Source of the DNA: Flavobacterium dankookense
GTDB taxonomy: Bacteria > Bacteroidota > Bacteroidia > Flavobacteriales > Flavobacteriaceae
Reading direction: 5' to 3'
Length of the DNA: 64,000 nt
Assembly: GCF_004362665.1 (NCBI RefSeq)
Contig: NZ_SNXR01000017.1
Location: 62,001-126,000 of the forward strand
Part shown: positions 5,789-10,191 of the stretch, in pieces
How the letters are laid out: each line of letters opens with the position of its first letter
Numbering within the stretch: position 1 is the stretch's first letter
Translations under genes and position numbers: made by a program
The notes under the pieces: generated by a model
What the model saw: the letters and a program-made list of their open reading frames with translations, nothing else
Database searches by the model: none
Told to the model about the DNA's origin: nothing

Positions 5789-5806
5789 TTTGTAAATGTT
5801 TACAAA
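5789..5806. promoter_or_regulatory. Perfect 18-bp palindrome, candidate operator
   Basis: TTTGTAAA-TG-TTTACAAA is fully symmetric apart from the 2-base centre. A related half-site (CGTTTGTAAGCATTTG, 5817-5832) follows. It sits 3' of the helix-turn-helix gene and about 40 bases upstream of the RES gene start, where a regulator of the RES gene could bind. An AT-rich hairpin is the alternative reading. Confidence 0.4.
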
Positions 5807-5859
5807 TGCTTAGTGTCGTTTGTAAGCATTTGTTGTAAATATAAAAAAAATCCCAACAA

Positions 5860-6228
5860 CTAATCCGTTACTTTATGAATCCCTTTATAAACCTTCAATT
5901 GGGTTTCTAATGATTTTATGTATTCTTCCTTTTCTAGCAGTTGGACTTTCAGTGCTTTTTCGGCTTTGGTTTCATAGGGTATGTTGAGTTGTTCGCCTAG
6001 TTCCATCAAAAAATTGTGCTTCACTGCAAGGCTAATCCGCCAAAGGATATTAAACTGAAAGGATGGTTGCTTAAAATATTGGTTGAATGTAGTAGGTAAA
6101 ATACCTAAAAAAGTAGAAACGTACGATTTCTTTATTTTATTCTTTTCTACATGAAATTGAACGTAGTTACCCAAATGTTTTGGATCGCCTTTTCTTGTTT
6201 TTTGATATCGTTTGCTATTGTCAATCAT
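5860..6228 (-). CDS. Small helix-turn-helix protein with C-terminal coiled coil
   Basis: The 122-residue product has a basic N-terminus (KRYQKTRKGDPKHLGNYVQFHVEKNKIKK, shown here only as positions 6-34). A helix-turn-helix-like region follows at about 34-80, with SYVSTFLGILPTTFNQYFKQ fitting an Xre-type pair of helices. A charged coiled coil sits at about 90-118. It is probably a DNA-binding regulator. Its promoter is next to an array of ten 22-bp repeats, suggesting that it binds them. It lies upstream of the RES gene on the same strand but lacks the DUF2384 features of known RES antitoxins, so partnership is open. Confidence 0.6.
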   Translation of the reverse strand: MIDNSKRYQKTRKGDPKHLGNYVQFHVEKNKIKKSYVSTFLGILPTTFNQYFKQPSFQFNILWRISLAVKHNFLMELGEQLNIPYETKAEKALKVQLLEKEEYIKSLETQLKVYKGIHKVTD

Positions 6229-6250
6229 ACTTTTAGTGCTATTGTTGGAA

Positions 6251-6258
6251 CAAAAATA
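6251..6258 (-). promoter_or_regulatory. -7 box of the helix-turn-helix gene
   Basis: On the minus strand TATTTTTG (6258-6251) matches TAnnTTTG and would start transcription about 19 bases before the ATG at 6228. No clear TTG lies at -33. The 22-bp repeat array starts about 40 bases upstream, the normal place for activator or repressor sites. Confidence 0.5.
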
Positions 6259-6298
6259 ATAAAATAATCCATAAATAAAACTCTTTTTTACTTATTTG

Positions 6299-6518
6299 TT
6301 GGTTTTTATACCTAACTAAGTTGGTTATTATAACCAAATTAGTTGGTTGTTTTAACTAACTATATTAGTTGCTATAACCAGTATAGTTGGTTATTATAAC
6401 TAATTATATTGGTTGTTATACGTAATAAAATTAGTGCTTATAACTAAGCTAGTTGGTTGTTATAACTAACTATATTGGTTTTTATACATAAGTTACTTGG
6501 TTCTTATGCCATAGTTTT
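6299..6518. repeat. Ten tandem imperfect 22-bp repeats (iteron or operator array)
   Basis: Units begin at 6299, 6321, 6343, 6365, 6387, 6409, 6431, 6453, 6475 and 6497, every step exactly 22 bp. Consensus is TTGGTTnTTATAACTAAnTA plus two loose bases. Positions 8-17 (TTATAACTAA) are the best conserved; position 7 and position 18 are essentially free. Each unit is a near-palindrome: the copy at 6321-6337 has 8-bp arms around one base. A 22-bp period puts all copies on roughly the same face of the helix. The array is bounded by the promoter of the helix-turn-helix gene and the terminator of the next gene. No spacer variation of CRISPR type is present. Confidence 0.85.
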
Positions 6519-6571
6519 TATTTTTAAACATTGAAAATCAATTATTTAAAACTAAAATTTTAGGCATAAAA

Positions 6572-6595
6572 AAAGCGCCTCTTTCGAAGCGCTTT
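6572..6595 (-). terminator. Terminator of the orphan helical gene
   Basis: Arms AAAGCGC (6572-6578) and GCGCTTT (6589-6595) are followed on the minus strand by a long T run (complement of 6568-6574). It ends the leftward gene at 6616. Confidence 0.8.
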
Positions 6596-6615
6596 ACTTA
6601 ATAGTTTGTTGTTTT

Positions 6616-7107
6616 TTAGCTGTTTGGATCGGTTGCTGGTTTGCCCGGTCCGCCTTGTCCCGCAAAGCGTTGTTTTAACTGATTGTGAATTGCATCAGCA
6701 CCTGGAACACCAGCATCTGCGGCAGAACTAAATAGTTTGTACAGTGCTAGGGCAGAGGTATAGGCCTCGCTTCCAGCCAGTAGTTGGGTGTCTTCCAGCT
6801 TTTCTAATAATTGTTTTACTAGAATAATGATTTCGTCGAGCTGGGTAAACAAGGTCATGTCGTTTTGAATACTCGGAACCGATACATACGACGGAATGAG
6901 TTGCACATTGTTTACTCCAGCATGGATGGCGTCTTCGGTAAAAGCTTTGTTGTTAACATCAATAGCAGGTAACGCGATGCGCTCCTCAATGGTTAGCCCT
7001 GTAAGGAATGGCAGGTTGGTGTTGATGGTTTGAAGTGCGGTTTTAACGGCAGTGATTTGCGTTGTTGTTGCTGTAATGTTCATACGATTGTTAGATAAAT
7101 TTGACAT
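6616..7107 (-). CDS. Orphan cytoplasmic helical protein with Gly/Pro-rich tail
   Basis: I cannot assign this 163-residue protein to a named family. It has no signal peptide or membrane segment. Most of it is predicted helical (TQITAVKTALQTINTNLPFL; LDEIIILVKQLLEKLEDTQLL). The C-terminus is a low-complexity GQGGPGKPATDPNS tail. The start at 7107 gives MSNLSNN; MNITATT, eight residues on, is an alternative. It has its own terminator and sits beside the repeat array and the helix-turn-helix gene, so it may belong to the same accessory module. Confidence 0.5.
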   Translation of the reverse strand: MSNLSNNRMNITATTTQITAVKTALQTINTNLPFLTGLTIEERIALPAIDVNNKAFTEDAIHAGVNNVQLIPSYVSVPSIQNDMTLFTQLDEIIILVKQLLEKLEDTQLLAGSEAYTSALALYKLFSSAADAGVPGADAIHNQLKQRFAGQGGPGKPATDPNS

Positions 7108-7235
7108 ATAATAATTATTTATTTTTTAATGGGTAAAAAGTAAATCGTTTTTTTATAACGCAAATCCCTAAAATTGCCGTCACATCTTGATAAGTGATAT
7201 TATTTTTATTTCAAGTCATAAAACACAAAAAAAAA

Positions 7236-7268
7236 GGTTTCAAGTAAAAAACTTGAAACCCTTTTTTT
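7236..7268. terminator. Strong bidirectional terminator after gcvP
   Basis: A perfect 9-bp stem GGTTTCAAG (7236-7244) / CTTGAAACC (7252-7260) has an A run before it and a T run after it. On the minus strand it follows gcvP by about 90 bases. Confidence 0.8.
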
Positions 7269-7314
7269 TAGTGATTAATTATCAATGATTAATTACTAAT
7301 GATAAATCATTAAC

Positions 7315-7349
7315 CATTAATCATTAATCATTAATCATTAATCATTATT
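7315..7349. repeat. CATTAAT heptamer tandem repeat
   Basis: Four exact CATTAAT copies (7315, 7322, 7329, 7336) and a degenerate fifth run up to the gcvP stop codon. Looser copies extend leftward to about 7275. Slippage would alter only the 3' untranslated region. Confidence 0.75.
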
Positions 7350-10191
7350 ACATGTATGCCTCAATTGGCGCACAGCTGCAAACTAAATTTCTATCGCCAT
7401 ACGCTTCGTCCACACGACGCACTGTTGGCCAGAATTTATTTTCCGCAATATAATCAAGCGCAAAAGCCGCTTTCTCACGAGAATAAGGATAAACCCATTC
7501 GTCTGCAGTAATCATGGCTAGTGTATGTGGTGCATTTTTTAAGATGTTGTTTACGTCGTCTTTGGTTGACTCGGCAATTTCTTTTCTGATGGCAATCATT
7601 GCATCACAAAAACGGTCGAGCTCGGCTAAATCTTCGCTTTCAGTTGGTTCAATCATCAAAGTACCTGCCACTGGAAACGATACCGTTGGCGCATGGAAAC
7701 CATAGTCCATCAATCGTTTTGCAATATCGGTTACTTTAATACCGTTGTCTTCAAAGGCGCGACAATCTAAAATCATTTCGTGGGCTGCACGTCCCATTTC
7801 TCCTGAATATAAAATCGGGTAGTGCTCTTCCAAACGAACTTTCATATAGTTAGCGTTCAGGATAGCGTGTTGGGTAGCGCTTTTTAAACCTTCGGCACCA
7901 AGCATAGTGATATAACCATAAGAAATCAAACAAACCAATGCCGAACCATAAGGTGCCGCCGATATCGCCGTGATGGCTTGCTCGCCACCTGTTGGGATAA
8001 TTGGATTGGTTGGTAAAAACGGTACTAATTTTTCGTTTACACAAATAGGTCCAACGCCTGGTCCACCACCACCGTGAGGAATAGCAAAGGTTTTGTGTAG
8101 GTTCAAGTGACAAACATCTGCACCAATAGTAGCAGGATTGGTTAATCCTACTTGCGCATTCATGTTGGCACCATCCATATAAACCAAACCACCATTGTCG
8201 TGGATGATTTGGGTAATTTCGCAAATAGCGCTTTCAAATACACCATGCGTTGATGGATAGGTAACCATCAAAGCAGATAAATTAGCAGAGTGTTCAATAG
8301 CTTTTGCTCTTAAATCTTCTACATCAATATTACCGTTTTCCATCGTTTTGGTCACGATAATTTCCATACCTGCCATCGCTGCCGAAGCTGGATTTGTTCC
8401 GTGTGCCGAAGCTGGAATTAAACATACATTACGGTGGTTGTCGCCACGCGAAAGGTGATAAGCACGAATAGCCATCAAACCAGCATATTCGCCTTGCGCA
8501 CCCGAATTAGGTTGCAAAGTAGTGCCTGCAAAACCAGTAACAACGTTCAATTGATGTTCTAACTTTTTAAGCATAATTTGATAGCCTTCCGCTTGATCGA
8601 TAGGAGCAAACGGGTGAATGCTGTTCCAGTTTGCCATTGACAACGGAAGCATTTCGGCTGCTGCATTCAATTTCATCGTACAAGAACCCAACGAAATCAT
8701 CGAGTGGTTCAACGATAAATCTTTGCGCTCTAATTTTTTGATATAACGCATCAACTGGCTTTCCGAGTGATGGTTGTTAAACACTTCATGGGTTAAGAAC
8801 GATGAGGTTCTTTCTAGTGAAGTTGGGATATTGTTTGTTGAGGATAGTTCCGTTACTTGGAAACTTTCTTTTCCTGTTGCTTCCGCAAAAATGGCAATGA
8901 TTTGATTTAAATCAGTCAAAGATGTGGTTTCGTTCAGCGAAATAGAAATAGTTTCTGCATCAGGATAGAAGAAATTCACACCGTTTTTCTCTGCAATATT
9001 TTTCACATTAGCAGCATAAGCTTTCACCGAAATGGTATCGAAAAATGCAGTGTTTACATTATATACACCTAATTTATTAAGTGCATCAGCAAGAGTTACA
9101 GCTGAAGCGTGTACTTTATTAGCAATGTATTTTAATCCTTTTGGACCGTGATATACAGCATACATTCCTGCCATAACCGCCAGTAAAACTTGTGCCGTAC
9201 AGATGTTTGATGTAGCTTTTTCACGTTTGATGTGTTGCTCACGAGTTTGAAGCGCCATGCGTAATGCACGGTTTCCGTTGGTATCAATAGTAACGCCAAT
9301 GATTCTTCCTGGCATACTTCTTTTGTATTCTTCTTTAGTTGCAAAAAAAGCAGCGTGTGGTCCGCCATATCCCATCGGAATTCCAAAACGTTGTGAAGTT
9401 CCAACGACTACATCGGCACCCATTTCGCCTGGAGGTGTTAACTTCACTAACGATAAAATATCTGCGGCAACGGCAACTTTAATTTCTGCTGCTTTTGCTT
9501 TAGCGATGAAACCAGCATAATCATGTACTTGACCATACTTGCCTGGATACTGAAGAATGGCTCCAAAAAAGTCGGCAGAAAAATCAAAACTCTCGTGGTT
9601 GCCAACTACTAATTCTACACCAATTGGCGTAGAGCGTGTTTGCAATACAGAAAGTGTTTGTGGTAATATTTCTTCGGAAACGAAAAATTTGTTTACGTTG
9701 TTTTTCTTTTGGTCGCGTGTTCTAACGTCGAATAATAACGCCATGGCTTCGGCAGCAGCTGTTCCTTCATCAAGAAGTGAAGCATTTGCGATTTCCATTC
9801 CAGATAATTCGATAACCGTTGTTTGATAATTTAGAATAGCTTCTAAACGACCTTGTGCAATCTCGGCTTGATAAGGTGTATAAGCAGTGTACCAACCTGG
9901 GTTTTCAAAAATATTTCGTTGAATAACCGCAGGAACTATGGCTGGATGATAGCCCAAACCGATATACGATTTGAATACTTTATTCTTGTTTCCTAATTCT
10001 TGAATGTGAGTTAGGTATTCATATTCCGTCATTGGAGCGTCTAAGTCTAGGTCTTTTTTTAGACGGATGTTGTCTGGCACCGTTTCATAAATTAACTGGT
10101 CAAAACTTTCTACTCCGATGGTTTTAAACATTTGTTCTAGGTCGTTCTCACGTGGACCTATGTGGCGTAATGCAAAAGCGTCTGTTTTCAT
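7348..10191 (-). CDS. gcvP: Glycine dehydrogenase (decarboxylating), P-protein
   Basis: The PLP-dependent P-protein of the glycine cleavage system decarboxylates glycine and passes the aminomethyl group to the lipoyl arm of GcvH. The 947 residues match the single-chain (alpha-beta fused) form. The N-terminus [16 protein letters not shown] and the PLP-lysine motif [18 protein letters not shown] (about residue 695) are canonical. So are [15 protein letters not shown] and the C-terminal [17 protein letters not shown]. It is monocistronic; gcvH and gcvT are not nearby, which is common in Bacteroidetes. A -7 box (TACTTTTG) lies about 75 bases upstream. No glycine riboswitch was seen in the leader. 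Confidence 0.97.

Follow-up and report, generated by a model that had tools for sequence, protein, structure and literature searches.

A 22-bp tandem array in Flavobacterium dankookense is a probable multi-site operator of the neighbouring helix-turn-helix protein and part of an apparently widespread module

The main finding of this work is that a tandem array located between two small genes of Flavobacterium dankookense is quite probably an in-phase multi-site operator, bound by the neighbouring helix-turn-helix (HTH) protein at its own promoter (Table 1; the window is the whole stretch of 64,000 nucleotides that was analysed). To judge from sequence comparisons, dimers of the adjoining 122-aa HTH/coiled-coil protein would bind the array at in-phase sites set two helical turns from one another. 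Lined up along the same face of the helix, they would build a nucleoprotein patch directly upstream of the HTH-gene promoter. Since such a patch would lie by that promoter, the HTH protein most likely controls its own expression, and it probably has further targets in the solo arrays that match in sequence; binding by the HTH protein, its cooperativity, its autoregulation and its action at solo arrays are what we infer from the evidence below. Array, orphan gene and, in one branch, HTH gene constitute a module that is apparently widespread in Bacteroidota and seemingly undescribed: no description of it was found in the open-licence PubMed Central literature, which is weak evidence of novelty.

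Table 1. Features of the module in the window, with positions counted from its first letter.
Feature	Position	Strand	Basis
Tandem array of ten imperfect palindromic units, exactly 22 bp each	6299..6518	.	Period statistics and Tandem Repeats Finder
Gene of a 122-aa Cro/C1-type HTH protein with C-terminal coiled-coil helix, likely array reader	5860..6228	-	Open frame, profiles, structure model, residue statistics
TAnnTTTG -7-like box of the HTH gene (TATTTTTG)	6251..6258	-	Starts 30 nt before the start codon
Gene of a 163-aa orphan, predicted all-helical, no known family; conserved partner of 21/22-bp arrays	6616..7107	-	Open frame, model, downstream-array counts
Terminator-like GC hairpin and T run, between orphan stop codon and array	6570..6597	-	By eye

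The array of the window is real and far above chance. Its units start at 6299, 6321, 6343, 6365, 6387, 6409, 6431, 6453, 6475 and 6497, the last ending at 6518, and identity at lag 22 peaks at 0.66 (176 positions), compared with a window mean of 0.275 (sd 0.044) and with 0.40 at the next-best place within the 64 kb; Tandem Repeats Finder called it at periods 22, 44 and 66. An earlier reading of the sequence alone had described ten repeats at an exact, indel-free 22-bp period, which the unit starts and the lag-22 identity bear out, and near-palindromic units, which are indeed imperfect palindromes of the type AACCAAnnnnnTTGGTT. The same reading placed the anchor TTGGTT or TTAGTT in all ten units; it is found in nine, the unit at 6431 having TTAGTG. 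A CRISPR-like or repeat-spacer arrangement was not found in the window array, where similarity spans the whole 22-bp unit and spacers are absent. A separate heptamer array, ATTAATC in 10.6 copies, is located at 7274-7347 of the window, at the end of the gcvP gene.

Given the position of the box before the HTH start, which is of the TAnnTTTG type known from Bacteroidota promoters, the array edge at 6299 lies about 41 bp upstream of it, in agreement with the roughly 40 bp first proposed. Among 58 HTH upstream regions only 16, against 6 percent in shuffles, had a TAnnTTTG box at a distance of 15-100 bp from the gene, as a rule near -30, so that in those cases the array is upstream of the promoter. 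In the module the orphan gene comes first, followed by a terminator-like hairpin, the array and, in one branch, the HTH gene, with one direction throughout; the hairpins were seen by eye in some modules only.

The association of arrays with both genes was examined in several sets of loci. When 299 Flavobacterium genomes were searched with a pattern, 127 gave matches, for the most part no more than the reversed control did; 16 of these were chosen by eye, ten rich in matches and six poor in them as a contrast, and a broader profile matched 10 of the 16, namely the ten match-rich ones. This gave a first set of 33 array loci, five of them from the window's own genome. Scanning periods 8-70 over 429 kb returned 22, 44 or 66 at 32 of the 33 loci and 65 at the remaining one (L117), along with four other periodic stretches (periods 8, 14, 14 and 42); because these loci were fetched by a 22-bp profile match, their period is partly a matter of selection, from which the sets found by protein are free. 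An intact HTH homologue adjoined 16 of the 33 arrays, starting 19-71 bp from the array and directed away from it, one array had a broken homologue and 16 were solo, while an orphan homologue was located on the opposite side of the array at nine loci. Locus L117 has another tandem array at 8964-9256, with a period of 42 (21-type), behind a terminator-like hairpin; the gene before it is alpha/beta-hydrolase-like by eye, not an orphan homologue.

In the protein search of the same 299 genomes, HTH homologues occurred in 31, orphan homologues in 35 and both in 24 (Fisher p = 5e-21); six genomes (G003, G065, G078, G133, G156 and G177) had the HTH gene and no orphan match even with wider profiles. 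Of 47 distinct HTH upstream regions in Flavobacterium, one was too short, and 43 of the other 46 contained a 21/22-type array within 600 bp (best lag of the 21/22 type, z of at least 4.5 over shuffles), the regions lacking a clear array being L153, L157 and L169. For HTH genes found by protein alone the count was 28 of 31, the other 15 of the 46 coming from array-fetched loci. Orphan homologues were present in 29 of 345 Bacteroidota genomes and in 20 of 160 genera, and a peptide pattern gave 31 loci in named genomes. Of 105 non-identical orphan genes followed by 250 bp or more of sequence, 88 had a 21/22-type array within 800 bp downstream, although in five of these the best stretch was more than 450 bp from the gene; the 17 misses include L203 (a weak 22-bp signal), L280 (a split orphan that entered the count twice) and, from the window's own genome, the copy at C2. 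Control genes of the same loci, more than 1 kb from every module gene and known array, had an array upstream in 3 of 260 cases and downstream in 4 of 260. The suspicion, voiced from sequence alone, that the orphan gene is involved is thus well founded: it belongs to the same unit as the array (88/105 against 4/260).

Spacing is the constant of these arrays. After double entries and near-identical copies had been dropped from 85 extracted arrays (periods 20-23 permitted), 76 distinct arrays remained, of which 43 repeat at 22 bp and 33 at 21 bp, and 577 of their 579 unit spacings were 21 or 22 bp, the two exceptions being 23 bp and both in L275. The unit matrix was read at one fixed period per array, so that regular arrays are favoured, and arrays mixing 21 and 22 (best lag 43, 64 or 65, as in L188) were scarcely captured. 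Two helical turns of B-DNA take about 21 bp, which places the sites of an array on the same side of the DNA. The unit sequences differ completely between modules while the spacing holds, and the proposal of selection on spacing is supported by these counts. A dyad-symmetric unit consensus (p<=0.05) was obtained for 45 of the 76. As a family-wide signature, the 22-bp consensus TTGGTTnTTATAACTAAnTA that had been suggested for searching related genomes does not serve, being merely one among many array sequences; in fact profile R1, tried as one consensus for the whole family, matched only 5 of 150 genomes, because unit sequence turns over, and protein searches found more. The idea that the arrays are coding was rejected as well: open frames cross some 21-bp arrays, yet 22-bp arrays cannot hold a frame.

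The structure model of the window HTH protein (pLDDT 82.6; helices 19-29, 34-41, 45-53, 59-69 and 73-81) predicts a five-helix domain of the Cro/C1 (XRE) type. Foldseek placed HipB, C.Esp1396I and P22 c2 nearest to it, with probability of about 1.0, E of 0.01-0.1 (best 0.012) and TM by target of about 0.6-0.7. HTH_26 (PF13443) was matched by 12 of 35 family members and HTH_3 by 10 of 35; the window protein itself had no match to PF13443. Family searches with HTH and orphan proteins returned nothing beyond generic or isolated weak matches, and IMG/VR contained no HTH relatives. The 380-aa protein adjoining the HTH gene (window:4630-5772) has a sub-threshold match to the RES domain (E 0.17).

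Because orphan and HTH proteins diverge to different degrees, full modules can be used to ask which of them the array follows, and 39 were compared (L280 entered twice). In 82 pairs the orphans were at least 0.8 identical, and among these array similarity correlated with HTH identity at rho 0.81 and with orphan identity at 0.20. Over all pairs, the partial correlation of array and HTH given the orphan was 0.28, a value reached by none of 500 permutations, and that of array and orphan given the HTH was -0.09; the HTH evolves faster than the orphan, and permutation removes this bias and the dependence between pairs only partly. Array similarity exceeded 0.4 in all 15 HTH pairs above 90 percent identity, in 67 percent of 18 pairs at 80-90 percent and in 8 percent of 93 pairs at 60-70 percent. 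Three genomes with two modules each illustrate the point: their orphans are 85-89 percent identical, their HTH proteins 66 percent, and their arrays unrelated (similarity 0.09-0.16; L119/L205, L126/L204 and L128/L203). An exception is L121 against L123, with HTH proteins 87 percent identical but an array similarity of 0.33. Among 56 HTH proteins (201 pairs), the residues that best predicted array similarity were N49 and T46, both inside the predicted recognition helix (helix 3, 45-53), followed by K31, Y8 and K33. The region 43-56 stood above the rest (p = 0.002) and helix 2 came second, although some top positions, such as Y8 and I61, fall outside the recognition helix; the module pairs are non-independent, which makes the residue p-values a guide only. 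This co-variation is the pattern expected if the HTH protein binds the units, and, with recognition-helix residues as the best predictors, it marks the HTH protein as the most likely array reader. The claim that the array is a multi-site target of the adjoining HTH protein therefore gains support from its position (43/46 upstream, control 3/260) and from the way in which it tracks that protein, best of all at the recognition helix.

The genome of F. dankookense itself contains eight arrays, four HTH genes and five orphan genes. A DNA search found two arrays similar to that of the window and a sequence profile added two, so that the arrays reached through array sequence are that of the window on contig C7, the solo arrays on C9 and at C2:56k and, at C3:295k and C1:383k, the arrays of paralogues, while C1:140k, C3:414k and C4:28k lie beside orphan genes. 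About four 22-bp units of a different palindrome (CCCTAAT...ATTAGG-like) were observed downstream of the HTH gene at C1 (L038:4029-4131). The solo arrays of the first set proved to resemble the HTH-linked ones: each of the 12 comparable ones has a similarity of at least 0.80 to one HTH-linked array in its genome, the other four of the 16 standing outside the comparison because their genomes have no HTH-linked array (L135, L136 and L137) or because the array was not extracted (L117). The window array matches L005 and L006 at 0.93, and L121 matches L122 at 0.83, both of the latter having GGCTAA where the window array has AACCAA. Other array pairs of one genome go down to 0.24-0.5, and mean similarity was 0.64 over 80 same-genome pairs (a few of them self-comparisons under two names) against 0.46 over 1700 different-genome pairs. 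Orthologous arrays across species also reach 0.9, being as alike as those within a genome, so that descent can explain part of the match of the solo arrays. Since the array sequences of paralogous modules differ, several such circuits could coexist in one genome with little cross-talk. All 16 solo arrays lie upstream of at least one open frame, some of these frames being short. Eight of 10 neighbouring proteins scanned were identified (a BON-domain protein, an LD-carboxypeptidase, a cytosine methylase, an ABC permease, a glycosidase, a leucyl-tRNA synthetase, an HNH protein and a solute-binding protein), and they form no coherent functional set.

The module is wider than one HTH gene, because arrays persist beside the orphan where no HTH gene is found. 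Behind the array, an HTH homologue was present in 36 of the 88 orphan-array modules and not found in 52, nor was one found anywhere in 15 of the 17 genomes tested that have orphan modules or solo arrays; G005, G010 and G288 are genomes that have solo arrays and no HTH homologue. Therefore, the HTH protein cannot be the sole array reader. In the 52 HTH-less modules the first downstream frame of at least 120 aa had the same direction in 20, the opposite one in 21 and was out of reach in 11, and this mixed direction indicates that the arrays there do not just serve as operators for the promoter that follows. The sequence-only reading had asked, as a check that could refute it, whether arrays always adjoin an HTH homologue, and they do not, given the 16 solo loci of the first set and the 52 modules just described; it stands for the array itself, for its probable role as an HTH operator and for the membership of the orphan gene. 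Among 60 relatives of the genome, none was close enough to count as a strain of the same kind. No recurring Pfam family was found among 116 downstream neighbours, nor a replication initiator (Rep) or replicon near the arrays, as far as the 25 listed of 106 neighbour families go. The module adjoins gcvP in the window, L121 and L123, and L193 and L224 have a globin gene with gcvP-fragment-like sequence (by eye) beyond it on the opposite strand; a gcvP site shared by HTH and non-HTH modules was considered, and as the neighbourhood is the same but the arrangement differs, no claim was drawn. At L283:6072-8847 the orphan and a 21-bp array are followed by a large gene, SIR2-domain-like by eye, and some other modules adjoin methyltransferase-like or Cas4-like genes. 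A link with defence genes, hinted at by such single neighbours, was not borne out by the families listed: PADLOC-DB genes showed no evident excess in 116 downstream against 107 upstream neighbours (25 families listed of 149 and 152).

The orphan protein is modelled as all helical, with one helix of 55 residues (pLDDT 85.7). Foldseek gave no convincing PDB match (best E 0.7), and the best hit of VIA-align against 115 chains had Z 4.2 over 52 residues, which does not amount to proof that the predicted fold is new. No consistent match was found in Pfam, NCBIfam, PHROGs and PDB, and no relatives among 72,556 plasmid records, in the phage collections searched or in IMG/VR. In a rival reading the array is a centromere-like or anchoring site, on which the HTH protein would be an adaptor and the orphan would act on the complex to position, pair or maintain DNA, much like StbA or the pair of KfrA and KfrC on plasmids, autoregulation being secondary. 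The gene order of helical protein, repetitive operator and HTH/coiled-coil protein resembles kfrC-operator-kfrA as outlined in PMC7783346, about ten in-phase sites exceed what a simple operator needs, and orphan and HTH co-occur in the 24 genomes already mentioned. However, the modules appear to be chromosomal and are several per genome (all copies examined sit in genome assemblies, among them draft contigs of either possible type), the plasmid, phage and viral collections just named hold no relatives for the orphan, no NTPase or partition gene was recognised beside the module, and 52 of 88 orphan-array modules have no HTH gene, all of which makes an anchoring function rather unlikely.

A less probable alternative is a selfish mobile repeat unit, in which orphan and array would be copied together, the array serving the copying and solo arrays being relics. 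Blocks of 1.2 to 1.8 kb have been copied to different places inside single genomes (L212/L213, L288/L228 and L262/L273), although the left end of the L288/L228 block may extend into similar neighbouring gene ends; the L212/L213 blocks end in a hairpin. The unit L273:4656-5905, from a Chitinophagales MAG, looks like a small mobile unit, with imperfect inverted repeats at its bounds (35 bp at 86 percent by BLAST, perhaps 50 bp by eye) and the same left end in its second copy, L262. Arrays in G005 and G288 lacking both HTH and orphan gene, and the diverse genes around modules, also agree with mobility. Nevertheless, no transposase was recognised in the units, inverted repeats were seen in one unit only (L273), the viral and plasmid collections gave no match, and spacing and HTH co-variation would be left unexplained. 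The earlier suggestion of an unrecognised mobile unit that includes the orphan gene is accordingly supported in part, as the orphan is in the array's unit and copied units exist. A role of the array as RNA, its transcript forming a string of hairpins, is very improbable and was rejected: the window array folds better than shuffled sequence (z -4.7 on the minus and -7.5 on the plus strand), one co-varying pair appeared in the first 13 arrays, and G-T mismatches rarer than A-C on the module strand (604 against 815) lean to the opposite strand, but any palindromic array folds, arm co-variation was lost over 85 arrays (above expectation in 34), column-permuted controls showed no strand preference (mean z -2.4 and -2.1, 69 arrays, although the absolute energy favours the antisense strand in 47 of them), and Rfam 15 found no family in 5800-7400, two miRNA matches being far below gathering score.

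The operator bound by its neighbouring HTH protein remains our preferred reading, and it makes these modules a rich natural series of small DNA-binding proteins, each with its tandem operator, in which the sequences of both partners have been replaced repeatedly and the spacing of 21 or 22 bp retained. Both the evolution of HTH specificity alongside its sites and the gain from ten in-phase sites over one become testable. More tentatively, the modules could constitute a Bacteroidota-wide chromosomal address system, in which the two-turn-spaced array would be the address, a fast-diverging HTH or other protein the reader and the conserved helical protein the effector; copied modules would each have their own address, and satellite arrays would mark other genes.

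Several known systems can be compared with the module. HipB, C.Esp1396I and P22 c2 share with its HTH protein the predicted HTH-domain fold; such Cro/C1-type repressors bind few operators, whereas the module has about ten tandem sites at a constant distance of two turns, and its HTH protein ends in a coiled coil. Plasmid iterons, too, are tandem repeats of about 20-22 bp recognised by the product of a nearby gene; unlike them, the module has no recognised Rep protein or replicon and several arrays per chromosome. In the repeats described in PMC4679880 the unit is the 7-bp TAACTGA, different from the module arrays. StbA of plasmid R388, as described in PMC3098194, binds a direct-repeat array near its promoter, and its motif also occurs in small numbers elsewhere at promoters; the module would resemble it in a repeat array bound near the promoter of its reader and in further arrays elsewhere, but the stbDRs form two groups, each of five 9-bp repeats with 2 bp between them, and serve plasmid stability. 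A comparable layout is that of KfrA/KfrC of the IncU plasmid RA3 where, following PMC7783346, an HTH protein with a helical tail has a repetitive operator at its own promoter, and the gene upstream encodes the alpha-helical partner KfrC. KfrA is a plasmid-borne protein of about 350 aa with five 9-bp direct repeats (PMC7783346), whereas the module has 21/22-bp palindromic units, an HTH protein of about 120 aa, an apparently chromosomal location and multiple copies per genome, and its orphan and array occur also without the HTH gene. A protein with its own repetitive operator is the known kind to which we assign the module, and the unexplained remainder may be new in kind.
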